This document shows positions 1-55,760 of a stretch of 64,000 bases of DNA, piece after piece. The notes beneath the pieces were generated by a model. That model was not told where the DNA came from. It was given only the letters and a program-made list of their open reading frames with translations, and ran no database searches. The position numbers were made by a program, and so were the translations under genes. The DNA is from Hexactinellida sp. DTS-2022. Lineage: Eukaryota; Porifera; Hexactinellida. The stretch lies in assembly GCA_028753945.1 (NCBI GenBank), contig JAPNXP010000001.1:14374501-14438500 (forward strand). The letters run 5' to 3'. The stretch's first letter is position 1. Every line of letters begins with the position of its first letter.

Positions 1-595
1 ATAGGTAAACAAGTTGGCTGATTTCGAGTTTCGCATTTACAGGTTTCTAATCGAAATATTTTTTGTTGTTGTTTAAAAAACGAGGTAAAAATATCTGTTA
101 TAATTCAAAATAAACTAGTGACTAACTTCCAAATGCTAGATATTGTAAACAAGTATGTTGAATACAAATTAAATTGTTTCAAAACTTTTAATGTAATTAT
201 TTATTGTTAATTGAAAAAAGCGGTTGAATAATCAGTCGTGAAGCAACCGACACAGAAGGACTCGTAATGAAAATGACTTAATCTTGGCTCATTTGACCTC
301 TAATACGTGGTGATATCCGTGTCATACAACATAATGTGATAATAATTTGTGAGGAAATCGATGCACTCTTTTTCTCAAATTATTCTACAGTTAACTTTCC
401 AATTCCAGAATGTTCACAAACCATTATTTGAACTTAGAGTTAACTAATTTATTCTCATTGAACAATATCGGCTTACAGAGATAATACAAACAACACCAGA
501 AGGTCCATACTATAATGCATTTGCTTTGATTAGTATCTAACCAGTGTATACCGATGAACCAGACCGTAATAAGATTATTTTGATGTGGACTTGTA

Positions 596-773
596 TACAA
601 TGAACTTCCGTTATAACGAATTGCTTGGGACCTGTAAATTTCTTCATTATACCGGATATTCGTTAGAAGCGGATAATAATTAATGCATTGAGTGTTCTGG
701 GGGAAGAATCTCCAATTGAATATAAGCAATTATTTCGTTATATCCGACTTTGTTATAACGGGAGTTCACTGTA
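596..773. mobile_element. pogo-type MITE, GTTATAACG family
   Basis: Starts TACAATGAACTTCCGTTATA and ends with the inverted form TATAACGGGAGTTCACTGTA. TA flanks and CAGT termini fit the Tc1/mariner-pogo superfamily. The same element lies at the orthologous place in copy B (42373-42550), so it predates the duplication. It has no coding capacity; the minus-strand ORF reading through it is chance. Confidence 0.75.
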
Positions 774-885
774 TTATCTACCGAAATCATTCTAATGAAA
801 TAATAGTTTAAAGAATATTTATAGGGAACAGATCCACGGACCATTTTTTCGAGTTAATAATTTAATCAAAATCTTTCGTGATTCC

Positions 886-1073
886 TACAGTAGAACCTCG
901 TTAATACAAACACCAAGGGACGGTAAAAATTTGTCCGCTTTATCCGGAGTTCTGATTAATCTGAGTAATACCCATTGAATAGCTATTGTAGGGACCTGAT
1001 TTTGTCGAACTGTTTGTTCGTCTTATCCGGAAATTCGTATTAATCGTGTTCGTATTAACGAGGTTCTACTGTA
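886..1073. mobile_element. pogo-type MITE, CCTCGTTAATAC family
   Basis: TIRs TACAGTAGAACCTCGTTAAT and GTATTAACGAGGTTCTACTG at the two ends, about 188 bp. Present at the same place in copy B (42662-42849). Related copies lie at 62774-62916 and 63600-63769. Confidence 0.78.
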
Positions 1074-1859
1074 TTTGGCAACAGTTGTGCATTAATAGCT
1101 TTATTACTTTAATATTTATGTACACTGAAAGTTTACAGTTACTTTGTTGAATGCAAGTAACATATTTCATGCAAAATTAAGTGTATCCAGAATAGTTTAA
1201 ATAGTAATCGTTCCAATTATTAATTGGATTAAACTTGATTTACAAATAGGATACGAACAAGTGCCAAATTACAAGGCCGAGCAGATAAATGTATACGTAT
1301 ATTCACAAATTCTATTACGATCTCCGAATATTCTAGTAGGATCTTGTCAAATCAACTGATGATCTAACATCGCATAGGCGTAGCACGCGGTCCGGCAGGT
1401 CCGGCCATCGCCGGAACAGTTTTCATTTATTCTACTATATTTTATAGGAGGTTCCGGTTTTGGCCGGACCACTTTAACTCTTTGGCCGGAGAGTTTTCAG
1501 AGCTTGCGACGCCCGTGCATCGGAGATTAGATAATACTCTTATTAATTGGTTTATAGGATAATTCCAGTTTGGTTCAGGGTTCCATTCAGTTTGAATTTG
1601 GGTCTATATTTTGATAATTTAAACGTTGATAGTTATACAGTTTGAATTTATTCAACTCCTTTGGTAGGGCAGTGTATAGGAGATATGTAGCAAAAGGAAG
1701 CTCGCAGACAATGTGAATCAAATTCAATAATTTATTAAAATGCATGAAGTACTTATGTGTCGGATGAATAATTAACGTCTGTTCAAATATAAACTATTTT
1801 ATGCATCGCCCAATCAGATTAAGGCTATTTCACTTCATATTTTTAATGGATCTGAGACT

Positions 1860-2032
1860 GAAATTTCATTGGTTGTGGATCTGTTAGAACGTATAGGCTT
1901 ATATAAAAAGGAAATCTTTAATCAGAAATATAAACGATTATTATTTGTGTTGTTTAAACAGAATATCCCATAGAATCTATTCTATAGATTCATTTCGAAT
2001 ATCAACATTTCAGAGAAACAGATCAAGTGAGT
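1860..2032 (+). promoter_or_regulatory. Candidate promoter and leader exon with splice donor (copy A)
   Basis: An ATTGGTT (inverted CCAAT) lies about 27 bp before TATATAAA (1900-1907). About 120 bp further on is a good splice donor, GTGAGT (2027-2032). The same order of signals recurs at 44130-44285 (copy B) and, more diverged, at 41300-41475. I infer a TATA promoter with a short non-coding first exon, possibly for the downstream NLR gene. No transcript evidence is available. Confidence 0.45.
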
Positions 2033-2039
2033 TTCAATT

Positions 2040-4450
2040 ATAGTTGCTAAATTGACATACGTATATGTATACAAACTCTTCCATCAGAGTGCCAAACCAT
2101 ATTAAATTCGGTTCTAACGTACCCCTTCTGCAAAAGAAAATTGGTTACAACTTACAAGATTGTAACTACTTACACTACATTGAAATAAGCACATATTATG
2201 TGGCAGCACATCTTGTGCGGGACGTGCGGAAAGCTCTGTACTACTTTTTAAAAGAGAAACTTCTAAGTTTCGGCATAGAGTCATCTGATTAGCGAGAAAA
2301 TCTTATCATAGAATCGGTTGTGTATTGTGGCCGCCATGTTACCTCCATACAGGTCGAAAAATCAATTAATTCCTATTTACAGTTTGGTAGTAAAATGAGT
2401 CACCCTATATAATGAGTCAAATTCGGCTAGCGAGTGTGACAATTCTATCCATAGAGAGAGACAATACCAAAGTTACGAATTTTGACAAAATTATCAATGG
2501 CTTTGAGGTTATGAATTCAAGAAAACTTTTTTATATAAATGTAAAATGTATTAAAAAGTAGTATTATTATCATATTATCTCACGCCTGGGTAAGGGGGAG
2601 GAATTTTGTTTTTATTATTATGAACATAACTATAAACTTGTGTAAAGTACTCCTAATATAGCAAATTTTAATTAATCTTGTATTTAGGGCATTACTATCA
2701 TTATTTTGGCATTGGCATGTGATTTTATATTTAATTTAATTATTAATATTTATTGTTTGGCATAGGATAATGTTATTTGCATATTAATGGAAATAAAAAT
2801 AAATTCCCGTCCGCCATCCGTATTTCTAAAGAAATCCGGATGATAAACAATTAATTTATTTTACCTGGCCTTAGTATTACAATCTGTATCAGCTCTGTGG
2901 CACAGTTCAATGTGCCACGTGCTACGCTACTTATAATGCATAACTTGTGAATAAGTATGCAGATACAGCCATAGCTCTTAGTGTATACTGAGTATAAGAA
3001 TACTTAGATTAATAGTAGTCATAAAATACTAATCGCTAATTCAACTGTAACAACAAACTCAAACAATAATAACAATTCAATAACACTGCTTGAAACGATC
3101 TACTACATTAGAAGTGAGATTTGTATACGAACTGTGCACAATGTGAGTTAAATATGTAGATATTATTGTCAGTTTTAAGTTAACAAGCCTATTTCCTGGC
3201 TGTAGTTTGATTAAACTATTTGTAGTTCCCTTGATAAAATCATTTCCGTACCTTTTCCTTCTTCAAACTTGAAAATATATTTTAATGAATCAATTATGAT
3301 CAACTTGTAATGTTTTGCTGTTCAGCTTAATTGGGTCATTTTTCGCTGTAGCAGAATTATAGTTAAAAGGATAGTAGTAAATGGGAAGAAATTTCAGGTT
3401 TTTACATAATTCAAACTTTGCTTTAGTACATACATACATCAAAGTTTGGTTATTCGTGTCCATATTTGGTTACTCTAGGGATATATATATATTATATAAA
3501 TTTGTTATTTTGTATTATGTAATTCAATCTAAGATTCTGTAAATTCACGGTAATTGTGTCAAAGTACTTACTCAAATATATGGATGTATCACTCGTTTAT
3601 TGAATATTATTGCTCACAAGATAGCATATTTCGGTTTACTGGTCGCTTCACCGCACTACTACCTCTGAATTAACTATAGATATAGTTATCATTCGAGCTA
3701 CCATATAATTACATGCTGTAGAAGAACGTAACTTGTAATACATTGAATGAGCTCACCAAAGTGTAGTACACTAAATAATTATTGACATCGATACACCGTT
3801 GGTATCAAATTATTCTACGTAATGAACTTTGCAATTCCAGAATGTTCTTAGACAATTATTTCAACTTAGGGTTCATTAATTTATTCTCAATGAACTATAT
3901 CTTCTTACAGAGACTAGTACAAACAACTCCAGTAGAGTCTATAACATGCTTTTGAATTATAGCTATTCTAATTACTGCATTCCTATGAACCACATCGTCA
4001 CTTAGATTATATTTTCCTAATTGCATTAGACTAATGGATAAACAAGTGTATTTAAATTTAGTATCATTGAGAAATATAATTTAGGCGAACACTTCCAAAG
4101 ACTATTTAATGTAAATTAATCCACTCCATTAAATTATGAAACAATCTCAACACTTTTTGTCTTCTGTTATTTTTATGTTTATTGACATCATCTATGCATT
4201 TAATTTATGTCGCATTATTGAATGCTGATTTTCAAAGTTGTAAATTGATTGAACATCACTTATGTCACGGGCATTAATTATACAAAACTATAGAACAGAA
4301 TTACAATTGAGAGTATATTCCTGTAATATGAAATAACTGCATTATTTACAAAGATTAATTTTTCTTTAAGAATTGATTTTATAGATGAACACTTGACTAT
4401 TAATTTGTGTCAGCTAATTATTATTAACATTATATTATTGCTTGTATCTA
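2040..4450. other. Non-coding stretch of copy A
   Basis: AT-rich with no convincing gene. Further GTGAGT/GTGAGA donor-like sites occur at 3114-3119 and 3143-3148 and are conserved in copy B. The 75-aa ORF near 2065 is disrupted in copy B, so it is not under protein-level constraint. Confidence 0.6.
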
Positions 4451-4457
4451 TTTGTAG

Positions 4458-4556
4458 AATAAAAGAATCAATCAATAACCGAGAATCGAGAATCAATTCA
4501 TTCCAAATAACGCAGAACTAACAATTGACTGCTGTGAAGTATTATCTGAATACAAA
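4458..4556 (+). other. Candidate non-coding leader exon, copy A
   Basis: Bounded by an acceptor-like CTATTTGTAG and a donor GTGAGT (4557-4562), length 99 nt. The copy B equivalent (46700-46799) keeps both splice signals although the interior carries substitutions and a 1-nt length change, which argues for an untranslated exon. Inferred to be part of the NLR leader. Confidence 0.4.
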
Positions 4557-4857
4557 GTGAGTTAGTATTTGCATTAGCTTCGGTCTCGTTGGCTTGCTAC
4601 GGGTCATTCAATTGCTACATGTAGTGTCGCTTTGTTGACAATTTGTTAATAGACTCTAAAATAACGTTATTGATATTTCGGCAAATTTGGTGCCGTACAA
4701 ATGTTAAGTAACTTAAAGTCATACGAATATTTACACCCCCTTCTTATTCATGCTTTACTATTTTGTAAACAAAAGTATTATATTACACACATTAGTCAAC
4801 TCCATCCCCTTTGAAAAGGTTTATTGATATTTAACTTTCTATCGCATTATTTTGTAG

Positions 4858-4917
4858 AATCGACTCAATCAAATACTAACAAACTCCGAGACGAACACAC
4901 CACACATTCTGTATCAA
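4858..4917 (+). other. Second candidate non-coding leader exon, copy A
   Basis: Acceptor TTATTTTGTAG before it and donor GTGAGT (4918-4923) after it, length 60 nt. Its copy B counterpart (47101-47159) keeps both signals and differs by 1 nt in length. The following intron would run to the acceptor at 11068, just before the NLR1 ATG. Confidence 0.4.
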
Positions 4918-4938
4918 GTGAGTTATTATTGAGTTGAG

Positions 4939-5666
4939 TACAGTGGATACCGGTTACCGAATATAACAACCAATGAGCATTTTAATATTCGTTTGAATTG
5001 ACAAGATTCCGGATTTAAGAACATTCGATTTTTGGAACATTTTAGCAGTGATGCAATTCGATTTCTTTGAATAGAATCTCTTTAGCTTTGTTCCTAGTTT
5101 ATTTATAACCGATAATGAGACAGTAAAGCTTTTTCGCCTGTGTTAGTCAAACAGTCGAATGTTACTGTATTGTAGATCAGGGGTTTATCTAGGATTTTCG
5201 TGGCAGGCACTTTATTATGTAGGTATAAATTTCCGTCACCCTAAATGTATTAGCCATAATACATAATCAGTATAATTCAATGATGCGGCACTATTTTAAG
5301 GAGGTAATTGCAACGGTGCACAAACAGTTGATTATCCAAGCATTTCTGGACCAGAAAATCTGGTGCCATACATCATTTCTGGACCAGAAAATCTGGTGCC
5401 ATACATGTGCCATTCATCCGGCACATAATTAAGTGCCTACCCGGCACCTAAATCGAATCGCAATTCACGAACTTTTTCACCACAACTGATGCCTGGCTAA
5501 AAGTGCCGGCCATGCACCTAGATAAAGCCCTGTTGTAGATCCATATACTATGTTCATAAATACTGATTAACATTACGTAGTATAGAATACTATACTGTTT
5601 ACAAGAACATATTGGTTATAAGAATATATCTGTGATAATATTTTCTCTAAACCGGTATCCACTGTA
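4939..5666. mobile_element. pogo-type MITE, GGATACCGGTTA family, with nested hAT MITE
   Basis: Begins TACAGTGGATACCGGTTA and ends AACCGGTATCCACTGTA. Copy B has it at 47181-47693 without the nested hAT element but with about 150 bp of other sequence near 47300-47460. Internal sequence has repeated AAGAACAT motifs typical of this family (other copies at 35965, 50696, 63295). Confidence 0.7.
5178..5532. mobile_element. hAT MITE, copy-A specific
   Basis: TIRs CAGGGGTTTATCTAGG and CCTAGATAAAGCCCTG, flanked by the perfect 8-bp target duplication TTGTAGAT (5170-5177, 5533-5540). Copy B is empty at this point, so it inserted after the segmental duplication. It holds a 30-31-bp direct repeat around 5340-5404 containing CTGGACCAGAAAATCTGG. 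Confidence 0.9.
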
Positions 5667-5669
5667 TTG

Positions 5670-8440
5670 TGTAGTTTGTGAATTAATTATACCTGCCAAC
5701 CCTACAGCATATACGCTATTTGACCAGGGATTTAGTTATTTTAAACAATCTGTGTTTGAATTTCACGCTCCTGAAATTAGTTGTATACACTAACCCGGCA
5801 AAAAGTATTTGAACTACAATAATTTAAATAAAACTATGCTTTGGTATAATAAAATAGCAAAATATATGAATTTATATTTCTATGGAGGTGTTACACTCAT
5901 TAACTAATAATGATCTAATTAAATATATAATTTCTGATCATTTTGAGGCAATTGAATTATACCTGTAATTCTGATTTCAGATTTGAATACCACATTGTCG
6001 AATTGCTATAGGTACAGAATTTCTAATCCATGCCATAATTTTCCACTGAGCTACAGCCCATTCCCTAATGTGCCACTTGTGCCCAAAGTGTCACGTGCTA
6101 GTGACACTAATGCCACTTCATGAATATTGAATATAAATGACTTAAAATCACAATTTTCTGAAATGTATAATTAGTGTAAGATATTTAATTAAAGACATGT
6201 AAATAATAAGGACTTGTTTAAACAGAGTTAATGCGAAACAAGAAATTTGTGTCTGGAATAAAATTCCTATGTTTTAAATACTTTTGTCCGGTTAGTGTAC
6301 ATATCGCTTCGTGCAAGTAAACTTTCCAGCAATCCCTGGACATGTTCCACCATAGAAACATAATTGAAAGATATTCTTCAAATTAATCACATTCCTAAAC
6401 ACATTCATTATGTGATCACTAATAATGACATCGAGCCTGTATTGCAAGCAAGCGAAATTTCAATTCCTCGAGCCATAAGAAATGTGTCCAGGGAATTCTT
6501 GGCATCCATTGATTTGTCTTGACTATGTTGGCAGGTATTATATTTTATACATGTATTTCCAAAGTTAATATCTTTGCTAACTAATGATAGCAATTATTGC
6601 ATTTTCCTGCGAATTTTAACAGTTACAATGGGATCAAATTTAGCTAAACTGTGTGCCATTAATATTTAATACATTAGAACTCGGTTATAACGTATCTTCG
6701 GGAATAGTACTAACCGAGTTTACGCTCATAGAAATAAAAATGTTGTTTGGATAAAATAGTAGTAAATACTAAGGCAAAGTAGGTACTAATCCAGGCACGT
6801 TATATCCGAGTTCTACTGTATACCCGTATTGATTAATTCTGCTATCGAATGTATGTAAACAACATGTTGATTCAAGATTTAACATATTTAACTAAGAGCT
6901 AAATTTACAGTTAAACTAAACAAGTAGAGAAAATTATCTAACACTCATTCTAACAAAATACTAATGGAGTGGATAGCTATAACTAGTTCCGCACATATTA
7001 ATATATTTCAAATTGAGCAAGAGCTAAACGACGCTCCCTTGAATAATTATACTCTCTTAGTCTCTATTTCTGAGGGGAGGCCTCCTATCCCTATTGTATC
7101 TCCTCTGGTATAGTCTGTCTGCATGGCTTCCTATTCGGTATGTTCCTCTTAGCAATTCCGTTTCAACACTTATTAAAGTGAGCAACCTTGCTTCCTTTCA
7201 TTAATCTGGATCCTACGTTAGCACCCAATCGCTCTTTGATAGGATAATGCCATCGAAACAGGATTCTTCTGACCGATGTTCATTTTTCAAAACAACTGTG
7301 ACTCTTAACTGTACATCTTTAATTGTTTCAATCCTGGAATTTGGAGTTGTGAGATTGGAATTAGCCTTTCTATTCACTGGGAATCGCGAATAGTTGACTT
7401 CTTGCAGTAGTATAACCTCAGTATCATAGTTCGGACCAGGCAAGTAAGCCACGCAATGAAATAAAACTAGTTATCAGATCGAACAGTGTGTTGTTGTTTA
7501 CCTTTTTAATGCACTCTGCATTTGGTGTAGTACCAAAGGGAAATATCAACGTTATCCGAATGCATTCACATGTCATCTAAATAGGGATGGCAATCTCATC
7601 TCCACTTAAATCTTCATCCTTGAGCCTCGTGTATATCGCGTGTCTGCTACAAAGACATAATGCCACACTGCTCTCGTTGCCAGAAAAGAATCTTTAAGTT
7701 GAATACGTCAAGTTTGAAGAAAAGGACAGGTCCGTATAATATTCACAGTCTTTTGAGTTCGGCATAAGCACGCATCTTCTGTGATGAATCGCGGTCCATA
7801 GCCATTCCCTCCGAGCGCTCTGATTCACTGGATGAGAACTCTTGGTGTAGAATCCATGTTTCCTCATTAATGTGATGGCTGGTGTATTTTTGTTCTCAGC
7901 GAATAGCCAGCAATATTCACCCGAAGGTTCGCATATTCGGCTAGCTCGGTATTAACTTGAAGTTTAAATCCTAATTCGCAGATTGTGTTGTATTTAGTTA
8001 CAGATAGTCCAGGATAGCGGTGTTCCTCCAATGTAAGAAAGAAACCCATTTCTCTCGGTGTCTATCTCTCCCAGTTCTCCATCAATAGCTCTCCTGCTGA
8101 AGCAGGCAACAAGGAATTGGTTTGCTTTTTTTTATACCCAATTCCTTTTCATAGATATAGCTTTTCATAGATTTGCTGGCCACTGCCTGGGAAAAGACTT
8201 TTCCATTCTTCTATACTAATTCCTTCTGTGTGTAGGAATTATTGATGCAACACACATCAATGTTCTTTCCTAGAAATACTACTTAGTAGCATAACATTTC
8301 GGATAGTCGTGGTAGTTAATCATGCTGCTATGCTTTACAGGAAAATAATGTAATAGTCAATTGCTCATCTAAAAAAAGTAATAAATTATTGCTTATTAGT
8401 CTAGTGCATAAAGATAAAACAAGTAACTAATAGCATAATC
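5670..8440. other. Non-coding stretch of copy A
   Basis: No convincing gene. It contains a pogo-like MITE (6670-6820). From about 7040 there is sequence shared with copy B 49050-49640 and 52752-53150, likely degraded retroelement 3' sequence. The target point of the 3.1-kb copy B insertion corresponds to about 7580 here. Confidence 0.5.
6670..6820. mobile_element. pogo-type MITE, AACTCGGTTATAACG family
   Basis: Left end TACATTAGAACTCGGTTATA, right end TTATATCCGAGTTCTACTGT. Copy B has the left end near 48712 but has lost the right end. A more complete relative is at 22024-22471. Confidence 0.6.
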
Positions 8441-10329: not shown

Positions 10330-11068
10330 ATCTGAGATAAAAGAACTTTAGAGACTCCTGAGTTTATGTTCCCTCCTCCTGTCTGTTGGACTCTTCATGA
10401 ATTGGATTGCATACGTTTCGAATATCAAGTGGCAATTAGTGTTGCGTTGCTTAATGGGTGTATTACCGCATGGTTTGATGCATCAAAGTCTGTAGTAAGT
10501 TAGTACAGTTAGTATCTCGTGACTGTGAGTCAGTGGGATTGGAAATAATATGTGTATTAAGCTAGGCAATAGTTAACTAAACAACCGACTAATCAATAAT
10601 CATATATAACTAATGTCATACAAGTATATCAATCATATTACCTAAGAGCATGTATAGTGTGATAACACGACTGTATAGTCATCCAAGTGCGTGTTGTCCG
10701 CGGCCACCGGGATCCATAGACCCCCGATTGGTGCTCCACTCATTAATTCGGAAGAATGCCCAGATCAAATATAGGTAAAGTGAACTGTAGTATAAATAGA
10801 CAATATTACTAAATACGTACTTATTTTCAATCTTTACCGGATTGGCATAGCATGCGTTGTGTATCGAGGAGTGTAAACATATTATGACTGTTATTAATTA
10901 ATTTAAATAACGAAATCAAAATATAATAATGTGAGAAATATTGTTGTTTAAAAGCGCGATTTATTCAAGTTCCTCTTAAGCGTCACGTCCCAATAAATGG
11001 CGCACATTTATAGATACATAGTATTCAATTAGGGGAGACATTTGTATTCCAATATCTCTTATTTATAG
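10330..11068. other. NLR1 upstream region
   Basis: No gene seen. It may hold the 5' end of the Gypsy remnant and the end of the NLR1 leader intron. The last bases before 11068 (ATCTCTTATTTATAG) form a good splice acceptor. Confidence 0.4.
11054..11068 (+). other. Predicted splice acceptor before NLR1 ATG
   Basis: Pyrimidine-leaning ATCTCTTATTTATAG ends 5 nt before the NLR1 start codon. NLR2 has TTCTTTTACAG 6 nt before its start although the surrounding sequence is not alike, so the arrangement looks functional. Confidence 0.5.
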
Positions 11069-11073
11069 TTAAA

Positions 11074-14000
11074 ATGGAGAAAGTGAATATTGCGGAAATT
11101 AAGTCTATGAACGAACTTGCAAAAACGCTAACGCCAGAGAATGTCCGCACGTTGCAAGACATACTCGGGATTCCGTCCGGAATTGTGGAACGAACTAAAA
11201 CCAATCCATACGATTTCATTAATTCGTTGAAATTCAGATTCGGGGCTTTGGATCCCAAAAGATTCCACAAAGCGCTAGAAACCATAGGGAGATCCGACCT
11301 TATACCAATAGCCAATAAGATCGACAGGCTCAACATCACCTTCGCAGGGCCTACATCCAAAAGGGATAGCTCCCCTTCAGTAGAATCATTCGTGACCTTA
11401 CTCAGAAATGAAATGACCATTGACCAATGGAAAATGATATTAGGCGGTGGAACGTCGCAAGAGGTTTCGACAGAAATAGAATTCGATTCAGCATTTAAGT
11501 TGTGCATTGAAGGAGGTTTGATCAGCCAAAATATGGAAAGTTTAAGCGAAATGATGCAAGCTGTAGATCGTGAGGATCTAGCTAAAGAGATGAGAAAGTA
11601 TTCACCAATATTTACGAATATGAATGAATCCGATTTCCAAAGCAAAATGATAGTAGAATTGCAATCCAACGAAACAAAGGATCAAGAAGACTGGGTAAAG
11701 AGACTGAGAGAGTATACCATCCAGCAAAATGCAAATGTGTACATACACTTTGATGATGAGGAGAGCACCACATTAGAATCCGTCTATACACCACTAACCA
11801 TTGTGGAAGAGGAAATAATGAGAGTTAAGGAAAATGAAGAGACCAGCCTAAACGAAATAGCATTCCTAAGGTCGATGAACCAAAAAGATAAGGCATTAAA
11901 AGTAGTTGATTTCATTGACATTATATCCCAGCGTGATCCGACTAAACCCAAAGTATTTTGTCTGATAGGGAATCCTGGTTCTGGAAAAACATTCCTATGC
12001 AAATACCTAGCCCTCCAGTATGGAAATGGCACACACACTAATTTCAGTTTCGTCATATCGATACAGTGTCGCAGTGAGGAGTGGCACGGCATGGAGAAAA
12101 CGAGACAAGACGCTGAGAAAGTTATCGACGAAGAATTCATCCAAGAATGGTTTTCCCATGCACTGCCAATGGGCATTAAATGGTCGAAATCCCTAGCGAA
12201 ACATCTGACAAAGACAGGAGGAGAAGGTCTCCTAATAATCATTGACGGGGTGGACGAATTCATCAAGGATGTTCCATTCAAAACGACACTGCTGTACTTC
12301 CTGCTGCAGAAACGTGTGCTTAACCGCGCAACGCTACTCGTGACCAGCAGGCCCGGTGCGTGGAATGACATCAGAGAGGAACACGGTCAGGCCTTGAGCG
12401 TGGACTCCAGCTTCCAGGTGCTGGGGTTCTCTCCCCAAGACAGAGACAGCTACTTTGAGAAGAGGATTAGCACGGTTGATAAACTGAGAGACACAAAGGA
12501 GCTGTTCTTCCGACACGATGAAATCAATCAGTTGTCTCTAGTGCCAGTTAACGCTAGTCTCTTCTCGTCGCTATTTAACGCCACAAACAACATTCTATCT
12601 CAGACACTGACACAGCTCTACTCCGCACTGATTGTGTACATAATAAGGCGGCAATTGCATCGCATGGGACTGAAGCGACTAACGCGGGTAGAGCACATGG
12701 CACAATTCCATCCATCCATCCTAGCCTGCATAGACTGCATAGGAAAGGAAGCCTACGAAGGCATATTCCACAGGGAGCTCAGCTGCAGAGAAGAGGATGT
12801 GTCGATTCGCGTAGACTCCCGAGACCACAAAACTGAGCGACTAGGCATTATGCAGGTACAAGTGAAGGTTCTAAAGCTAGGCCAGAAAGTGAATGTTTGG
12901 ACCTTTGCACACTTGACACTGCAAGAATACATTGCTGCAGTGCACCTTAGCAACAAGACATGGACAGTAGAATGCATAATAGTTCGATTCATCGTGAGTA
13001 GTGAGGAGGTGTTCGCAATGTATAGGATGGTAGTGAGGTTCTTATGCGGTCTGCTATCGGATAGAGCTGCCTGTCTCATGCCCATTATCTGCGGGAATAT
13101 TATACCAGATACAATGCCACTAATCGGTATGCCTATGATCCATCAACTCAGATACTTAAGTAATATCATCGATGTCTCTGACTGGATTCAATTTACTCAG
13201 GTCTATCTACTCATTTGCACACTAATTGTGGAAACCAACTCTCGCTCAATGAAAGAGTATTTTGAATGTTTCATTAAATTGTTGGCAGAACATGTGAACT
13301 TCATTTTCGATAAATCTATAGCACCAAACGAATTCCATTGTTTTCTGCTATCACTGAATTACTTCTTCCAAATAGAAATCCTATATATTTCGACATATTT
13401 AATTAATCCTAACCAGTTCAGTCTACTACTGCATCAGCTCTCCTCCTGCAGCCTACACTACCTAGCCATTGCATTCTATGGAACAGATACAGAGCCAATC
13501 CAATCGTATACGACCCTCCTATTCTCTGCTGATACACCAATTAACTATAAGATCAGTATTAGCCTCAGAGACTGTGATCTAACAGAGAGTTTGCATTCCA
13601 ATCCTCTCTTCCTAACAACAAGCAATACATTGACTGGAAGCATTAGGCTATCCCAATCCGCAATATCCAATGAAATGCTGATACATTTGACCAATCAGTT
13701 TGCTAGCTTTGAGAATCTATTCTATGTGCCCAAATCAGATGATTCTGATTGGTCTATTCTGCTGCCACTGATATCCAACAACAGAGCTATTCAGGGGCTG
13801 TCCATAAGGGATCCTAAATCATACCTGCCAGAGACAACAGACATACTATCAGGCCTCTCCTCCCTGGAAGAGTTATTCTTGTTCAATAAGGATCCCTACG
13901 CTGCCCTACCTAACCTACAGACTAACTACAGTCTCAGTTCTCTATCGCTAATAGCATCTGATGTGCCTCCTCTTAGGGAGAATTACCAAGACCTCCTCAT

Positions 14001-14475
14001 TAACCTCATTGCTAATAATACTACTTCATTGAGGGAAATAAGCCTAAATTGTTTACCATCAGTCGGATTGAACAGCTGTACCAGCATCTTATCCCCAATC
14101 CAATCCTGTTGTAATCTGGTATCACTAACGCTAGCTGCTATTCCATTCACCTCAGATGATATCAGCTGCTGGGACACTGCTATCCCCTATCTTCAGTCTC
14201 TTGTGGAATTGCGTCTCGTATCTATCCCCTTGCAGGACACAGGACTAATGGAACTGTGCAAGAGTCTGTATAAACACCCAGCTATTCGTAGCTTGAGGAT
14301 CCATAATTGCAAACTAACTTCCGACTCGTGTGAGCCTATTTTCATGCTTATTCACACACTCCCGTATCTACGCCTACTTACGCTATACAAGCCTGAGCTC
14401 TCTCTCCCCGATCCCAGCCCGCTACAGCTACTCCAGCAAACAGCAGAGCTATTCTCTGTTAAAGTGCAACTGTGA
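11074..14475 (+). CDS. NLR receptor 1: tandem DED-like, NACHT, LRR
   Basis: 1133-aa single-exon ORF, a predicted intracellular sensor that would oligomerise on ligand and recruit partners through death folds. Residues about 10-82 resemble a death-effector domain, ending in the typical LETIGRSDLIPIA; residues about 105-178 look like a second one (FKLCIEGGLISQNM, MMQAVDREDLA). NACHT: Walker A GNPGSGKT (299-306), Walker B LLIIIDGVDEF (387-397), sensor-like LLVTSRPGAW (421-430), winged-helix signature FAHLTLQEYIAA (611-622). From 794 on there are about 12 LRR strands, the last at 986, 1015, 1044, 1072 and 1100, with a 28-29-residue ribonuclease-inhibitor-like period. There is no signal peptide or membrane segment. 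The ATG at 11074 aligns with that of NLR2 and sits just after a predicted acceptor. The DED assignment rests on by-eye pattern; DD or CARD is possible. Confidence 0.92.
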   Translation: MEKVNIAEIKSMNELAKTLTPENVRTLQDILGIPSGIVERTKTNPYDFINSLKFRFGALDPKRFHKALETIGRSDLIPIANKIDRLNITFAGPTSKRDSSPSVESFVTLLRNEMTIDQWKMILGGGTSQEVSTEIEFDSAFKLCIEGGLISQNMESLSEMMQAVDREDLAKEMRKYSPIFTNMNESDFQSKMIVELQSNETKDQEDWVKRLREYTIQQNANVYIHFDDEESTTLESVYTPLTIVEEEIMRVKENEETSLNEIAFLRSMNQKDKALKVVDFIDIISQRDPTKPKVFCLIGNPGSGKTFLCKYLALQYGNGTHTNFSFVISIQCRSEEWHGMEKTRQDAEKVIDEEFIQEWFSHALPMGIKWSKSLAKHLTKTGGEGLLIIIDGVDEFIKDVPFKTTLLYFLLQKRVLNRATLLVTSRPGAWNDIREEHGQALSVDSSFQVLGFSPQDRDSYFEKRISTVDKLRDTKELFFRHDEINQLSLVPVNASLFSSLFNATNNILSQTLTQLYSALIVYIIRRQLHRMGLKRLTRVEHMAQFHPSILACIDCIGKEAYEGIFHRELSCREEDVSIRVDSRDHKTERLGIMQVQVKVLKLGQKVNVWTFAHLTLQEYIAAVHLSNKTWTVECIIVRFIVSSEEVFAMYRMVVRFLCGLLSDRAACLMPIICGNIIPDTMPLIGMPMIHQLRYLSNIIDVSDWIQFTQVYLLICTLIVETNSRSMKEYFECFIKLLAEHVNFIFDKSIAPNEFHCFLLSLNYFFQIEILYISTYLINPNQFSLLLHQLSSCSLHYLAIAFYGTDTEPIQSYTTLLFSADTPINYKISISLRDCDLTESLHSNPLFLTTSNTLTGSIRLSQSAISNEMLIHLTNQFASFENLFYVPKSDDSDWSILLPLISNNRAIQGLSIRDPKSYLPETTDILSGLSSLEELFLFNKDPYAALPNLQTNYSLSSLSLIASDVPPLRENYQDLLINLIANNTTSLREISLNCLPSVGLNSCTSILSPIQSCCNLVSLTLAAIPFTSDDISCWDTAIPYLQSLVELRLVSIPLQDTGLMELCKSLYKHPAIRSLRIHNCKLTSDSCEPIFMLIHTLPYLRLLTLYKPELSLPDPSPLQLLQQTAELFSVKVQL

Positions 14476-28749: not shown

Positions 28750-29910
<1,161 letters not shown>

Positions 29911-41475: not shown

Positions 41476-42372
41476 GATAGTTGCATAAATTAACATGAAT
41501 AAATTATCCTATTTAATTGCAAATTGTTACTACAGTATTTGATTTCTTAATACTACAGTTGAATTATAACGTACACCCCCTAGTCGCTAGGTACTATGAG
41601 AAAATAAGTACAAATTATATGAGTGTTAGCTAATCAGTGCATCGCTATATAGCTATTAGTAACCGAGTTGACCCAGTTACCTAAACTACATAGAATACAT
41701 ACGTACATTTAAATATGGAAATAGAAACTGCATTTATAATTGCGATAGAGACTTCCAATTTCAATGGTAAATAATAGGTAAACAAGTTGGCTGATTTCGA
41801 GTTTCGCATTTACAGGTTTCTAATCGAAATATTTTTTGTTGTTGTTTAAAAAACGAGGTAAAAATATCTGTTATGATTCAAAATAAACTAGTGACTAACT
41901 TCCAAATGCTAGATATTGTAAACAAGTATGTTGAATACAAATTAAATTGTTTCAAAACTTTTAATGTAATTATTTATTGTTAATTGAAAAAAGCGGTTGA
42001 ATAATCAGTCGTGAAGCAACCGACACAGAAGGACTCGTAATGAAAATGACTTAATCTTGGGTCATTTGACCTCTAATACGTGGTGATATCCGTGTCATAC
42101 AACATAATGTGATAATAATTTGTGAGGAAATCGATGCACTCTTTTTCTCAAATTATTCTACAGTTAACTTTCCAATTCCAGAATGTTCACAAACCATTAT
42201 TTGAACTTAGAGTTTATTTATTTATTCTCATTGAACAATATCGGCTTACAGAGATAATATTACAGACAACACCAGAATGGTCCATACTATAATGCATTTG
42301 CATTGATTAGTATCTAACCAGTGCATACCGATGAACCACACCGTAATAAGATTATTTTGATGTGGACTTGGA

Positions 42373-42550
42373 TACAGTGAACTCTCGTTATAACGAATTG
42401 CTTGGGACCTGTAAATTCCTTCGTTATATCCGGGTATTCGTTAGAAACGGATAATAATTAATGCATTGAGTGTTCTGGGGGAAAATCTCCATTTGGATTT
42501 AAGCAATTATTTCGTTATATCCGACTTTGTTATAACGGGAGTTCACTGTA
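42373..42550. mobile_element. pogo-type MITE, GTTATAACG family (copy B)
   Basis: Copy B counterpart of 596-773, with a cleaner left end TACAGTGAACTCTCGTTATA. Confidence 0.78.
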
Positions 42551-42661
42551 TTATCTACCGAAAATCATTTTAATGAATTAATAGTGTAAATAATATTTAA
42601 AGGGATCAGATCCACAGAACATTTTTCGTTAATAATTTAATTAAAATTTTTACAATATTCC

Positions 42662-42849
42662 TACAGTAGAACCTCGTTAATACAAACACCAAGTCACGGT
42701 AAAAATTTGTTCGCTTTATCCGGAGTTCTGATTAATCTGAGTAATACCCATTGAATAGCTATTGTAGGGACCTGATTTTGTCGAACTGTTTGTTCGTCTT
42801 ATCCGGAAATTCGTATTAACCGTGTTCATACTAACGAGGTTCTACTGTA
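42662..42849. mobile_element. pogo-type MITE, CCTCGTTAATAC family (copy B)
   Basis: Counterpart of 886-1073, ends TACAGTAGAACCTCGTTAAT and ACTAACGAGGTTCTACTGTA. Confidence 0.78.
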
Positions 42850-43068
42850 TTTGGCAACAGTTGTGCATTAATAGCTTTATTACTTTAATATTTATGTACA
42901 CTGAAAGTTTACAGTTACTTTGTTGAATGCAAGTAACATATTTCATGCAAAATTAAGTGTATCCAGAATAGTTTAAATAGTAATCGTTCCAATTATTAAT
43001 TGGATTAAACTTGATTTACAAATATGATACGAACAAGTGCCAAATTACAAGGCCGAGCAGATAAATGC

Positions 43069-43578
43069 AGAGCATTAAAGGAGCGCGCTCCAAAGAGCGC
43101 AGCTCCTGGTGCGCGCTCCATTTTTCAGGAGCGCAGGCTGGAGCGCGCTCTTTGTAAAATTGAGGAGCGGGAGGTGGAGCGCCGCTCCAATTATTGAGGA
43201 GCGCGCTCCTTTTTTCTTAGATTGTTGCAAAACATCTAGTACATTTATTCACAGATAATTTCCTAATTATGTCCATAATTCATCAAGATTTGAAGCAAAT
43301 GTGAATTGGGGAGTTACGAGATAAAAAAATTCTGAAAATCACCAAATTTTATATTTTTGCCCTAAAAAGTACGTAATTCTGACGATTTACATATTTTTTT
43401 CATTTTGAAAGGTGTGAAAAAGGAGCGCAAAATGAGCGCGCTCCAATTTTTCAGGAGCGGGAGCGGGTGTGCGCTCCTTTTTTTTCGGAGGAGCGAAAAC
43501 AGGAGCGCCGCTCCTTTTTATGATTAGGAGCGCGGAGCGGGAGCACGCTCCAAAAAACTAGGAGAGCTTAATGCTCTG
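43069..43578. mobile_element. hAT MITE rich in GGAGCGCGCTCC, copy-B specific
   Basis: Ends CAGAGCATTAAAGGAGCG and GAGAGCTTAATGCTCTG, perfect 8-bp duplication GATAAATG (43061-43068, 43579-43586). Copy A is empty at 1285-1292, so insertion followed the duplication. Carries about ten copies of the palindromic GGAGCGCGCTCC motif or its variants. Confidence 0.93.
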
Positions 43579-44129
43579 GATAAATGTATACGTGTATTCA
43601 CAAATTCTTCTACGATCTCCGAATATTCTAGTAGGATCTTGTCAAATCAACTGATGACCAAACATCGCATAGGCGTAGCACGCGGTCCGGCAGGTCCGGC
43701 CATCGCCGGAACAGTTTTCATTTATTCTACTATATTTTATAGGAGGTTCCGGTTTTGGCCGGACCACTTTAACTCTTTGGCCGGAGAGTTTTCAGAGCGT
43801 GCGACGCCCGTGCATCGAAGATTAGATAATACTCTTATTAATTGGTTTATAGGATAATTCCAGTTTGGTTCAGGGTTCCATTCAGTTTGAATTTGGGTCT
43901 ATATTTTGGTAATTTAAACGTTGATAGTTATACAGTTTGAATTTATTCAACGCCTTATTATTCCACTGTTAGTAGGAATCTTGTTAAAGTTCCACCGCCC
44001 GTGTCAGATATCATTCAATCGAAATTGTTATCAAAGTAATTATTCTCGCATCCTCAGATATATTTCGTGTGGAGCTGAAACAATATTACCATTAAGGCTA
44101 TTCACTTCATATTTTTAATGGATCTGAGA

Positions 44130-44285
44130 CTGAAATTTCATTGGTTGTGGATCTGTTAGAACGTATAGGCTTATATAAAAAGAAAATCTTTAATCAGAAA
44201 TATAAGCGATTATTATTTGTGTTGTTTAAACAGAATATTCCGTCTCGAATATCAACATTTCAGAGAAAAAGATCAAGTGAGTTTC
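44130..44285 (+). promoter_or_regulatory. Candidate promoter and leader exon (copy B)
   Basis: Counterpart of 1860-2032: ATTGGTT, TATATAAA (44172-44179), GTGAGT donor at 44277-44282. A 22-25-nt deletion in the leader relative to copy A leaves the signals intact. Confidence 0.45.
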
Positions 44286-46699
44286 AATTATAGTTGCTAA
44301 ATTGACACATATGTATACAAACTCTTCCATCAGAGTTCCAAACCATAGTAAATTCGGTTCTAACGTATCCTTCTGCAAAATAAAATTGGTTACAACTTAC
44401 AAGATTGTAACTACTTACCCTACATTGAAATACGTACATATTATGTGGCAGCACATCTTGTGCGGGACGTGCGGAAAGCTCTGTACTACTTTTTAAATGA
44501 GAAACTTCTAAGTTTCGGCATAGAGTCATCTGATTAGCGAGAAAATCTGATGATACAATCGGTTGTGTACTGTGGGCCCATGTTACCTCCATACAAGTCG
44601 AAAAATCAATTAATTCCTATTTTACCGTTTGGTAGTAAAATGAGTCACCCTATATAATGAGTAAATTCGGTTAACGACTGTGACAATTCTATCCATAGAG
44701 AGAGACAATACCAAAGTTACGAATTTTGACAAAATTATCAATGGCTTTGAGGTTATGAATTCAAGAAAACTTTTTTATATAAATGTAAAATGTATTAAAA
44801 AGTAGTATTATTATCATATTATCTCACGCCTGGGTAAGGGGGAGGAATTTTGTTTTTATTATTATGAACATAACTATAAACTTGTGTAAAGTACTCCTAA
44901 TATAGCAAATTTTAATTAATCTTGTATTTAGGGCATTACTATCATTATTTTGGCATTGGCATGTGATTTTATATTTAATTTAATTATTAATATTTATTGT
45001 TTGGCATAGGATAATGTTATTTGCATATTAATGGAAATAAAAATAAATTCCCGTCCGCCATCCGTATTTCTAAAGAAATCCGGATGATAAACAATTAATT
45101 TATTTTACCTGGCCTTAGTATTACAATCTGTATCAGCTCTGTGGTACAGTTCAATGTGCCACGTGCTACGCTTCTGATAATGCATAGCTTGTGAATAAGT
45201 ATGCAGATATACCCATAGCTCTTAGTGTATACTGAGTATAAGAATACTTAGATTAATAGTAGTCATAAAATACTAAACGCAATTTTAACTGAACAACAAA
45301 CTCAAACAATAATAACAATTCAATAACACTGCTTGTAACGATCTACTACATTAGAAGTGAGATTTGTATACGAACTGTGCACAATGTGAGTTAAATATGT
45401 AGATATAATTGTCAGTTTTAAGTTGACAAGCCTATTTCCTGGCTGTAGTTTGATTAAACTATTTGTAGTTCTCTTGATATAATCATTTCCGTACCTTTTC
45501 CTTCTTCAAACTTGAAAATATATTTTAATGAATCAATTATGATCAACTTGTAATGTTTTGCTGTTCAGCTTAATTGGGTCATTTTTCGCTGTAGCAGAAT
45601 TATAGTTAAAAGGCTAGTAGAAAATGGAAAGGAATTTCAGGTTTTTACATAATTCAAACTTTGCTTTAGTACATACATACATCAAAGTTTGGTTATTCGT
45701 GTCCATATTTGGTTACTCTAGGGATATATATATATTATATAAATTTGTTATTTTGTATTATGTAATTAAATCTAAGATTCTGTAAATTCACGGTAATTGT
45801 GTCAAAGTTGTTACTCAAATATATGGATGTATCACTCGTTTATTGAATACTATTGCTCACAAGATAGCATATTTCGGTTTACTGGTCGCTTCATCGCACT
45901 ACTACCTCTGGATTAACTATGGATATAGTTATCATTCGAGCTACCATATAATTACTTGCTGTATAAGAACGTAACTTGTAATACATTGAATGAGCTCACC
46001 AAAGTGTAGTACACTAAAATAATTATTGACATCGATACACTGTTGGTATCAAATTATTCTACGTAATGAACTTTGCAATTCCAGAATGTTCTTAGACAAT
46101 TATTTCAACTATGGGTTCATTAATTTATTCTCAATGAACTATATCGTCTTACAGAGACTAGTACAAACAACTCCAGTAGAGTCTATAACATGCTTTTGAA
46201 TTATAGCTATTCTAATAACTGCATTCCTGTGAACCACATCGTCACTAAGATAATATTTGCCTAATTGCATTAGACTAATGGATAAACAAGTGTATTTAAA
46301 TTTCGTATCATTGAGAAATATAATTTAGGCGAACACTTCCAAAGACTATTTAATGTAAATTAATCCACTCCATTAAATTATGAAACAATCTCAACACATT
46401 TTGTCTTCTGTTATTTTTATGTTTAGTGACATCATCTATACATTTAATTTATGTCGCATTATTGAATGCTGATTTCCAAAGTTGTAAATTGATTGAAGAT
46501 CACTTATGCCATGGACATTAATAATACAAACTATATAACAAAATTACATTTCAGAGGATATTCCTGTAATATGATATAACTACATTATTTACAAAGATTA
46601 ATCTTTCATTAACAATTGATTTATAGATGAACACTTGACTATTAATTTGTATTAGCTAATTATTATCAACATTATATTATTGCTTGAATCTATTTGTAG
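44286..46699. other. Non-coding stretch of copy B
   Basis: Near-identical to copy A 2033-4457, with no gene. The ORF that is 75 codons in copy A is frameshifted here. Confidence 0.6.
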
Positions 46700-46799
46700 A
46701 ATACAAGAATCAATCAATAAGCGAGAATCGAGAATCAATTTCATTCCAAATATCTCAGAACTAACAATTGACTGCTGTGAAGTATTATCTGAATACAAA
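46700..46799 (+). other. Candidate non-coding leader exon (copy B)
   Basis: Acceptor ATCTATTTGTAG before, donor GTGAGT (46800-46805) after, 100 nt. Pairs with 4458-4556 in copy A. Confidence 0.4.
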
Positions 46800-47100
46800 G
46801 TGAGTTAGTATTTGCATTAGCTTCGGTCTCGTTGGCTTGCTACGGATCATTCAATTGTCACTTGTAGTGTCGCTGGTTTATAATTTGTTAATAGACTTTA
46901 AAAAACATTAATGATAATTCGGCCAATTTATTGCAGTACAAAAGTTAATTAACTTAAAGTCATGCGAATATTTACACCCTCTTCTTATTCACGCTTTTTT
47001 CTATTTTGTAAACAAAAGTATTATATGACACACATTAGTCAACTCCATCCCCTTTGAAAAGGTTTATTGATAATTATCTTTTTATGGCATTGTTTTGTAG

Positions 47101-47159
47101 AATCGACTCAACAAACACTAACAAACTCCGAGACGAATACACCACACATTCTGTATCAA
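47101..47159 (+). other. Second candidate non-coding leader exon (copy B)
   Basis: Acceptor TTGTTTTGTAG before, donor GTGAGT (47160-47165) after, 59 nt. Pairs with 4858-4917 in copy A. Confidence 0.4.
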
Positions 47160-47180
47160 GTGAGTTATTATTGAGTTGAG

Positions 47181-47693
47181 TACAGTGGATACCGGTTACC
47201 GAATATAACAACCAATGAGCATTTTAATATTCGTTTGAATTGACAAGATCCCGGATTTAAGAACATTTGATTTTGGAACATTTAAGCAATGATGAAATTC
47301 GGTTAACAGGTTAACCACCGATACTATACAACAAATATAGTAGTGTAGAACATTATTAATTTTCTACAGAATAAAATAGAGCAACACAACGTATTACTTA
47401 ATCCATAACTACAATAATTAACCCACAAGGACATTACCTATACATTTTATACAGCTGAGTTAATTTGATATTTTTAGTTAAGAATCTCTCTAACTTGGTT
47501 CCTAATTTATTTATGCCGACAGTGAAACAGTAAAGCTTTTTAGCCTGTGTTAGTCAAACAATAAAGATCCATATACTATGTTCTTAAATCCTGATTAACA
47601 TCACGAAGCATAGAATACTATACTGTTTACAAGAACATATTGGTTAAAAGAATATATCTGTGATGATATTACTTTAAACCGGTATCCAACGTA
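47181..47693. mobile_element. pogo-type MITE, GGATACCGGTTA family (copy B)
   Basis: Counterpart of 4939-5666. Right end decayed to GGTATCCAACGTA. About 150 bp at 47300-47460 is not present in copy A. Confidence 0.65.
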
Positions 47694-47699
47694 TTGTGT

Positions 47700-49637: not shown

Positions 49638-50695
49638 GATGGAGGAATTCCATGTCAAATCAACCAGTCATTTCACCACTATCAATCGATTTGTCTGTAA
49701 ATTGCTGTGTGACGAGCTACTAGCAAGTCTAGACTTTCCTCAAAATCTTAGACCAATCGGTTGAGTGCTTTTTGAATTATGACGTCACAAAATTACCTTT
49801 ATTTGTTGATTATCCAAACATTTTTCAAAATGTTGAAGCACCATCTCACTTCAAACTCGTATAACTTTTGATATAATTATCCAATTCTTTTACTAATTGC
49901 TATACTTATGTTTTAATATATGGAGAATTCAAATCAGATGGATATATTAAGTTATCAGTTGTTTTATTAGTGAAAATTAGAACTGAAACCAATACCGGAA
50001 GTAGAACCGGAACCATGACGTAGCAAAAATGTATATTTTCAGATCTCTTTTATTTTTTGGTAATTTATTGTATGTAGTCTTAAGTCATTGTGTAGAAAAT
50101 TTCAATATGGTTTCCATCTCTTCCCAATGAGTTATTCACATTTTTGTTCCTCTAAACGCTTTTTATGTGATGCTACAATTTATTAATGTTTTTATAAAAC
50201 ATCATACTGGCTAAAACCATACTCTATTTCTATCATATTGATAGATATTTCCTATTTTTATAATTATTATCACCAGTGTATTATACAGCCATTTGTAAAT
50301 ACGCTCCAATCCTGGTTTGATGCAATTTTTATACGCCAAAATCACAAATCAATGTTACCGTATAGGAGAGGATTCCAGATTTTCGCGCTCCAAGATCAAA
50401 TTTTCCAAAAATCATACTCCAAAAGGACCGTCTCGCGCTCCTGAATAATTCGTGATTATCACTAATTCCAACAGCATTATACAATTGATATATACATCAG
50501 AAATTTGTGGTTTGTGGTATGTTTGACCTCAGATACAGTATACTTGTAGTATCTTAGGTGCATTAGTATTGTTGCTATGTTTAATAGGAATGCAATAGAT
50601 TAAACTAATGAGCTGTGAACTTACTTACGATAACTAATAGTTGTGTCACACTGTTTTTGGCCCTACTATAATATAGCTTATAATTCATTATTTGA

Positions 50696-50871
50696 TACAG
50701 TGGATACCGGTTGTAAGCACATCGTCGGGAACTACATTAATGTGCTTATAACCGCATGTTCTTATAACCGACATAAATTATACAGGGTATATGGCAACCG
50801 TTTTCCAACATAGTGTGCTTATATCCGATATGTTCTTATAACCGGTGTGCTTATATCCGACATCTACTGTA
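50696..50871. mobile_element. pogo-type MITE inside the long-TIR element
   Basis: Ends TACAGTGGATACCGGTTGTA and ATCCGACATCTACTGTA; interior repeats GTTCTTATAACCG. Confidence 0.8.
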
Positions 50872-55740: not shown

Positions 55741-55743
55741 TGC

Positions 55744-55754
55744 TTCTTTTACAG
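55744..55754 (+). other. Predicted splice acceptor before NLR2 ATG
   Basis: TTCTTTTACAG ends 6 nt before the start at 55761, mirroring NLR1 (5 nt). Confidence 0.5.
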
Positions 55755-55760
55755 AACGAA

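Follow-up and report, generated by a model that had tools for sequence, protein, structure and literature searches.

In plants, the variation of the highly variable NLRs (hvNLRs) peaks at strand positions of the leucine-rich repeats (LRRs), namely 3, 5, 7 and 8 in one example and 7–10 in RPP13, where most high-entropy residues are under positive selection, and the class is defined by at least 10 positions above 1.5 bits (PMC8226289). The zebrafish NLR-B30.2 family comprises nearly 400 NLRs with domain-dependent gene conversion and N-terminal types assorted among groups; its authors describe the B30.2 domain as positively selected and the LRRs as not particularly variable, too little so for specific recognition (PMC4852459). 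The sponges Amphimedon and Dysidea possess large NACHT-LRR expansions, including some nearly identical neighbours, according to another study (PMC12909245), and in fungal NLRs with WD, ANK or TPR repeats the concave repeat face is positively selected and concerted evolution is suspected (PMC4986451). Here we describe two paralogous NLR genes, NLR1 and NLR2, in a 64-kb stretch of the genome of the sponge Hexactinellida sp. DTS-2022 (contig C1, positions 14374501–14438500, in a genome of 112 Mb and 18 contigs), hereafter called the window. In their family, diversifying selection on the strand face of the LRRs together with the exchange of gene parts quite probably provides a germline repertoire for intracellular recognition.

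The preliminary description of this locus had likened it to plant NLRs and to lamprey VLRs. The first likeness stands, in that positive selection acts at LRR strand residues as in plant hvNLRs (RPP13, RPP1 and others), whereas the plant proteins carry NB-ARC and the sponge genes combine NACHT with ribonuclease-inhibitor-like LRRs, belong to an animal and were compared as paralogues rather than as alleles of one orthogroup. Counted among paralogues of one genome, not alleles, the LRR positions above 1.5 bits number 31, 11, 30 and 31 in the clades A, C, D and E defined below, and in clades A and D they are outnumbered by N-terminal positions (50 and 65). Lamprey VLRs, which are put together somatically from LRR cassettes and carry their variable residues on the strands of the solenoid, are similar only in the site of the variable residues; here whole germline genes are concerned, and the 36 intact copies fetched are of near-constant length (1069–1193 amino acids from the first Met). 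The ribonuclease inhibitor offers the closest solved LRR sequence, and its presumed contact residues align with the hot positions 5 and 7, but it is a conserved inhibitor without NACHT. A large family and domain-dependent exchange are shared with zebrafish NLR-B30.2, whereas here no B30.2 domain is found and the LRR strands vary. In the fungal NLRs, in contrast, no LRR motifs were found and the variation extends to repeat number (PMC4986451), while length is nearly fixed here. Sponge NLR expansions are known already, but the main text of PMC12909245 never uses the terms positive selection, diversifying, exon, intron or gene conversion, and no report of LRR-strand selection in sponge NLRs was found in the open-licence literature under the terms searched. 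The LRR face itself carries a plant-like signature in five clades of one animal genome which, if true, would mean that specific intracellular recognition by hypervariable LRRs arose in animals too. Furthermore, because silent age is decoupled between the N-terminal, NACHT and sensor parts, one can see how a repertoire of this kind is open to quick rebuilding, and the variable positions mark a presumed binding face that can be tested.

Replacements at the LRR strand positions

NLR1 (11074..14475, forward strand; 1133 amino acids) and NLR2 (55740..59165, forward strand; 1141 amino acids counted from the first ATG) are two long single-exon NACHT-LRR genes. The ATG at codon 8 of the NLR2 open reading frame (ORF) matches the start of the relatives L009 and P0003. 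Their LRR domains were analysed over codons 761–1133 of NLR1 (13354..14472) and the matching codons of NLR2 (58041..59159), both on the forward strand, and differ by 57 amino acids among 373 residues. Strand positions 3, 5, 7 and 8, which make up 52 of the 373 residues, hold 26 of the 57 differences (hypergeometric p 7e-11); 41 lie inside the motifs (143 residues), against 16 in the remaining 230. Positions 5 and 7 each mismatch in 10 of 13 repeats, position 9 in 5/13, position 8 in 4/13 and position 3 in 2/13, and leucine 4 in none of the 13. By pairwise maximum likelihood (ML), the ratio of nonsynonymous (dN) to synonymous (dS) change of this pair is 4.59 at the strands and 0.55 elsewhere (p 4e-8).

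The concentration of differences on strand positions, which the preliminary description had reported for 13453–14448 (codons 794–1125 of NLR1), is therefore real and confirmed; both ORFs and the strand peptides it quoted are present, and the three inter-strand stretches it called identical are so in both genes. Its statement that nearly every LRR differs in the strand agrees with positions 5 and 7, apart from the repeat LVSLTLAAIPF with a single T to S change and from positions 3 and 8, which seldom differ; the rest of the LRR is not entirely free of change, given the 16 differences outside the motifs. The range assigned to the paralogue, 58135–59150, starts out of frame: the matching stretch lies within the ORF at 55740–59165, and the repeat equivalent to that at 13453 in NLR1 begins at 58140.

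In the AlphaFold2 model of NLR1, the strands take in positions 3–6 of every repeat (13/13) and position 7 of all but one (12/13). Columns holding at least four residues among 10 clade A genes number 22 in the strands (94 columns), 1 in the helices (140) and 8 elsewhere (139). In an alignment to the human ribonuclease inhibitor (1a4y; residue numbers by our own count), pairs of positions 5 and 7 correspond to W261/W263, S289/A291 and W318/K320, and a further position 5 to W375, all of which, A291 excepted, we take to be ligand contacts of the inhibitor. The strand residues would then line a concave ligand-binding face as in that protein; the earlier placing of the variable sites on this face agrees with the predicted strands and the alignment, from which the concavity itself was deduced. 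We infer that the variable residues serve recognition.

Thirteen LxxLxL motifs of 33 bases each were registered on the leucine anchors. On the forward strand of NLR1 they are motif 1 at 13372..13404 (IEILYISTYLI), motif 2 at 13453..13485 (LHYLAIAFYGT), motif 3 at 13549..13581 (KISISLRDCDL), motif 4 at 13633..13665 (TGSIRLSQSAI), motif 5 at 13708..13740 (FENLFYVPKSD), motif 6 at 13789..13821 (IQGLSIRDPKS), motif 7 at 13864..13896 (LEELFLFNKDP), motif 8 at 13933..13965 (LSSLSLIASDV), motif 9 at 14029..14061 (LREISLNCLPS), motif 10 at 14116..14148 (LVSLTLAAIPF), motif 11 at 14200..14232 (LVELRLVSIPL), motif 12 at 14284..14316 (IRSLRIHNCKL), which aligns with the W261/W263 strand of the inhibitor, and motif 13 at 14368..14400 (LRLLTLYKPEL). 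The motifs of NLR2 (58059..59087, forward strand, likewise 33 bases each) start at 58059, 58140, 58236, 58320, 58395, 58476, 58551, 58620, 58716, 58803, 58887, 58971 and 59055. Motifs 9–13 of NLR1 are spaced by 28–29 residues and the earlier ones by 23–32, and the C-terminus lies 24 residues past motif 13.

The two genes are members of a large NACHT-LRR receptor family, most of whose genes have a single exon; for the wider comparison, the DNA of 45 further NLR loci of the same genome was added. A NACHT profile search of the genome gave at least 94 places, 75 of them with an open frame of at least 1000 amino acids (one of the 75 with a stop), and a protein search gave 42 matched places, 40 of which are stop-free; L013, however, is cut short, and L021 and L022 are two halves. 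From the best 7994 candidates scored in a protein database came 112 relatives, of which 91 have 1000–1200 amino acids and 111 carry the NACHT profile; 87 of the 112 were aligned and 72 of those 87 used for entropy (sets of 42, 8 and 22). Clade A consists of L001–L012 (NLR1 being L001 and NLR2 L008) and is spread over contigs C1, C12 and C15, clade C of L014–L019, clade D of L028–L036, L038 and L041 (8 of the 11 in most tests), clade E of L023–L026 and L037, and clade F of six LRR stretches on contig C16, from 6 of the 9 places there with frames above 1100 amino acids. Apart from small gaps in clades D and E, the 13 motif columns line up from clade to clade. L002 and L003 were dropped as near-identical to L001, although both were kept in the 66 clade A pairs and L003 in the 11-gene clade A ML, the third-base mismatch counts and the M1a/M2a fit. 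Also dropped were L013 (partial), L021 and L022 (halves of one gene), L027 and L039 (stop codon), the clade D near-duplicates L033, L035 and L038 (L035 was used in D-near, a set of four near members of clade D), and the single relatives L020 and L040. L002 (C1:14350851) is an upstream copy nearly identical to NLR1, and L003 (C1:14240251) an upstream copy 98% identical to it; L021/L022 (C1:14321662–14325064) is a clade A copy split over two reading frames, apparently a recent pseudogene.

By counting over the 66 clade A pairs, positions 5 and 7 have a dN of 0.52 with a dS of 0.25; the corresponding values are 0.32 and 0.17 for positions 3, 5, 7 and 8, 0.04 and 0.11 outside the motifs, and 0.024 and 0.143 for codons 216–693. 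With the strand partition for codon ML fixed beforehand, after the preliminary description, as positions 3, 5, 7 and 8, the 11 clade A genes yield a strand dN/dS of 4.71 against 0.63 elsewhere (twice the log-likelihood difference, 2dlnL, to dN/dS = 1 is 183). Across clades A, C, D, E and F, strand dN/dS is 4.67, 3.76, 5.11, 3.07 and 3.71 and that of the remaining LRR 0.60, 0.83, 0.87, 0.71 and 0.83; the strand value is 3.93 in D-near and 6.37 in clade F with five of its six sequences. Since silent changes are raised near the strands, strand codons were given their own neutral rate, under which dN/dS is 3.61, 2.00, 4.01, 3.05 and 3.41 in the same order (p 1e-9, 0.006, 1e-7, 5e-4 and 6e-6), with local rate multipliers of 1.29, 1.91, 1.19, 1.01 and 1.08. 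In clade A, M2a is preferred to M1a (2dlnL 297; branch lengths were taken from the partition fit and left free only in scale), with a positive class of dN/dS 9.1 at 10.6% of codons; a posterior above 0.95 is reached by 31 sites, with 27 of them at positions 5, 7, 8 and 9, two at 10 and 11 and two outside the motifs. In the database set of 42 relatives (62–70% identical), position 5 has an entropy of 2.11 bits, position 7 of 2.28 and position 8 of 1.36, compared with 0.48 for leucine 4 and 0.39 for leucine 6; the set of 8 has 1.92 and 1.98 bits at positions 5 and 7, and the 22 more distant relatives show a high background, with 2.75 at position 7, 2.63 at 8, 2.49 at 10 and 2.21 at 5. Strand residues are thus replaced faster than silent sites in five clades, and the diversifying selection proposed in the preliminary description holds up when more paralogues are added and when the local neutral rate is freed.

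Mosaic genes and the exchange of parts

A point beyond the earlier reading of the locus is that the genes are mosaics: silent age differs between the N-terminal part, NACHT and the LRRs, so that gene copies must have exchanged sequence, and trees of the parts disagree. The N-terminal parts of clade A form four types (L001-6, L007-9, L010-11 and L012), with dS 1.18–3.05 or saturated between types and 0–0.17 within them in the pairs printed, and in the same pairs dS of codons 216–693 is 0.01–0.20 throughout. The 5' module of NLR1 (10405..11718, forward strand) comprises about 669 bp of 5' flank and codons 1–215, and the N-terminal part of NLR2 (55740..56405, forward strand) is of the L007–L009 type; N-terminal dS between the two genes is 1.30, and at about codon 200 their third-base mismatch falls sharply from 32–68% to 8–18%. 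The 5' flank tracks the N-terminal type in the pairs tested, with NLR1 and L004, located on different contigs, sharing the 669 bp at 98%, and no match was found between the 5' flanks of NLR1 and NLR2. Both genes are carried by a tandem segmental duplication, whose left copy (1..8004) matches in blocks the right copy of the flank (41774..53169), the main blocks being 88–96% identical and one short block 81%. As flanks this similar accompany an N-terminal dS of 1.30, the front end of NLR1 or NLR2 was probably replaced at the duplicated locus.

The contrast is stronger still in clade D. In all 28 pairs of its 8 genes, dS of LRR codons 816–1133 is 0.06–0.11, whereas that of codons 216–693 starts at 0.10 and reaches saturation, exceeding 0.5 in 24 pairs, and for the N-terminal part only 4 pairs are neither saturated nor above 2; at the strands, dN (0.31–0.58) exceeds dS (0.05–0.21) in 28 of 28. 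Silent constraint does not explain the low LRR dS of clade D, because between clades LRR dS lies between 1.47 and saturation for six of the seven pairs tried, the seventh, L040–L028, having 0.67. These values imply that the C-terminal sensor was exchanged or recently shared among old receptors, after which the strand residues changed. Gene conversion is indicated by shared tracts such as 182 identical bases over codons 854–915 of L004 and L007 (0/500 shuffles).

Strand positions 5, 7 and 8, and partly 9 and 10, change far more than the leucine core and the bulk of the LRR scaffold; in the explanation we favour, diversifying selection would thereby build a germline repertoire of intracellular recognition specificities. 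Ligand binding would lead to NACHT oligomerisation, and the death-fold-like N-terminal six-helix groups would signal. Exchange would carry the LRR scaffold to receptors with different 5' flanks and N-terminal parts, and point substitution and short conversion tracts would re-specify the binding face.

The alternatives are partly compatible with one another, and their probabilities need not add to one. A more far-reaching reading, which we hold only tentatively at about one chance in four, is that in this early-branching animal the C-terminal LRR forms a pool of exchangeable cassettes, in which one scaffold per clade is kept uniform by steady exchange among receptors with separate 5' flanks and signalling halves saturated at silent sites, and its binding face renewed. 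Exchange could here be by gene conversion or mediated by complementary DNA (cDNA), and renewal by selection or by exchange that favours diversification, giving a uniform chassis with plug-in sensor and trigger. Single-exon genes and the 3'-weighted sharing would suit cDNA-mediated exchange. In the explanation we favour, gene conversion rather than a cDNA would be the route. BLAST comparison of three clade D pairs gave an initial match that stops 31–53 bases past the stop codon and no common 3' end at a poly(A) signal, and L028–L029 have further 3' matching pieces, one of 1007 columns at 90%. The 3' flanks of L028 and L029 share about 1 kb at 90% identity from about 330–440 bases past the stop, at a dS of 0.66 in codons 216–693, which may reflect a shared repeat or a wider exchange.

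Somewhat less probable, though compatible with our favoured explanation, is that old variation is held by balancing selection on a scaffold homogenised by gene conversion, in which case dN/dS above 1 would partly compare old amino-acid with young silent sites. The strong mosaicism, the shared tracts and the raised silent differences beside the hot codons fit this, as do the clade A 3' flanks, which are 67–86% identical in alignable pieces (91% in one 22-base piece) while LRR dS is about 0.1. However, the third bases of hot codons, which would have been converted or spared along with bases 1 and 2, look young by their T/C changes.

Three further observations concern silent change along the genes. 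L003 is nearly identical to NLR1 from about codon 401 and differs at 10–15% of third bases in codons 201–400, a pattern likely due to recent gene conversion. In codons 436–475 and 516–575 of NLR1 (12379–12498 and 12619–12798), clade A silent differences are 1–4% per 20 codons, compared with mostly 6–21% in the other clade A NACHT windows; this dip, not clear in clades C–E, may mark a conversion hot spot or a hidden element. Codons 694–760 (13153–13353 in NLR1), just before the LRRs, have a raised pooled dS of 0.29 in clade A and lie between two more homogeneous stretches.

Silent sites and the case against selection

Several results weigh against diversifying selection at the strand codons. 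For the focal pair the strand counting ratio is 1.79 (p 0.12), strand dN not being significantly above dS, and five disjoint pairs have strand pN/pS of 1.17–2.35, singly at p 0.11–0.40 and pooled at p 0.019. In some sets the remaining LRR evolves almost neutrally (0.87 in D, 1.32 in five-sequence F) and, outside clade A, it is as a whole weakly constrained; clade C requires a 1.9-fold local rate at the strand codons. The LRR tree resembles a star and its branches are for the most part weakly supported, and the four-gamete test is violated by 7407 of the 13366 informative site pairs, the clustering measured in the manner of the pairwise homoplasy index being equalled in 4 of 500 shuffles; as recombination is rife, single-tree ML likelihoods are an approximation. 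At four-fold third bases, purine/pyrimidine mismatch in hot codons amounts to 0.063, between the 0.037 of the LRR outside the motifs and the 0.078 of NACHT, and silent mismatch at leucines 4 and 6 is 0.195, compared with 0.107 at other LRR leucines and 0.149 at NACHT leucines. Finally, hot codons simulated at dN/dS 6 agree with the data at bases 1 to 3 but show too many two-fold purine/pyrimidine changes (0.184 vs 0.104 observed), so residue preferences, or something else, act as well.

Targeted hypermutation of strand codons, by a mutator or by template-directed exchange and with little selection, draws on some of these results. Many hot codons vary at bases 1 and 2 with a constant third base, silent changes at leucines 4 and 6 are 1.8-fold those of other LRR leucines, and two-fold third-base purine/pyrimidine changes are rarer than the selection simulation predicts. 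Nevertheless, in hot codons (positions 5, 7 and 8), where first and second bases mismatch at 0.38 and 0.35, third-base T/C mismatch in NNY codons is 0.077, scarcely above the 0.061 of the LRR outside the motifs and the 0.056 of NACHT; as T/C silent changes are hardly raised, hypermutation is not the main cause. A constant third base is moreover expected where mostly silent changes go unselected, and a neutral model, which would have to raise the local rate 2.6- to 3.9-fold, is the poorer fit in every one of the five clades, which makes this account very improbable. Hypermutation or neutral drift at strand codons is thus disfavoured by both the T/C clock and the free-rate fits. A mutator templated like that of diversity-generating retroelements was weighed for the NNT, NNC and NNG codons and, with no search made for a reverse transcriptase or template, set aside as less probable, since selection explains most of the pattern.

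Equally improbable is relaxed constraint, under which strand surface residues would matter less than the leucine core and evolve near-neutrally: the strand counting ratios of 1.2–2.4, singly non-significant, would agree with it, but ML dN/dS stays at 2.0–4.0 with a free local rate, significantly so in 5/5 clades, the M2a class reaches 9.1 and the helix columns lack the pattern (1/140 with at least four residues). An assembly artefact, with collapsed reads or the haplotypes of a single locus posing as copies, might be suggested by L002, nearly identical to NLR1 at a distance of 35 kb, and by L036/L038, of identity 1.00 after rounding, but is the least probable account of all, given that clade A lies on three contigs with flanks differing between copies and that 40 of the 42 matched places are stop-free inside.

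Domain identity and surroundings of the two genes

NACHT was found by Pfam at residues 294–466 of NLR1 (11953..12471, forward strand; E 7e-19, 68.7 bits) and 301–473 of NLR2 (56640..57158, forward strand; E 3e-19, 69.8 bits), the cut-off being 26.7 bits. The C-terminal LRR solenoid present in NLR1 is ribonuclease-inhibitor-like, with that inhibitor as the closest solved LRR by sequence (E 3e-21) and with the inhibitor-type LxxLxLxx(N/C)xL repeat of 28–29 residues by sequence match. NLR1 is laid out as two N-terminal six-helix groups, NACHT, a helical region and 13 such LRR motifs, an order also seen, up to the LRR solenoid, in its AlphaFold2 model (89 sequences; mean predicted local distance difference test score, pLDDT, 84.8, with most LRR blocks at 90 or above). 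Foldseek and VIA-align matched the model to NLRC4, NLRP3 and NOD2 in the PDB, and VIA-align to the ribonuclease inhibitor as well. NACHT, LRRs and these fold matches identify NLR1 as an NLR of the NACHT-LRR type, to which its paralogue NLR2 belongs as well. Up to E 0.1, Pfam gave no B30.2/SPRY match in either gene and listed none to NB-ARC, NACHT matching instead. The N-terminal six-helix groups are suspected to be death-fold-like, possibly DED: a DED match lies below the cut-off in NLR1 and in four of eight relatives scanned and is unlisted in the other four, and 8 of the 112 database relatives carry a precomputed DED annotation. Folded alone, the N-terminal part had a low pLDDT of 42.5, and that model was not used.

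Between the two genes lies an intact single-exon actin gene (28780–29910, forward strand). Transposon remnants occur on the reverse strand at 38122–38745, 19728–20030 and 17689–18015, among them a MULE transposase domain found by Pfam and, by eye only, one ORF resembling a reverse transcriptase and another resembling a P-loop helicase. An inverted repeat, very recent by its look, lies within the right-hand copy of the flank, with arms of 985 nt (49639–50623 and 51770–52754; 49639–52754 in all) that are 100% complementary and separated by a spacer of 1146 nt. Elsewhere on the contig, one of the loci fetched (L054, C1:17465700–17466000) is a cathepsin-L-like exon in which the catalytic Cys is replaced by Ser (CGSSW), as in silicatein. 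A silicatein query of the genome retrieved cathepsin-L-like genes, the two best with CGSCW, and L054 is the one with CGSSW among five further exons.

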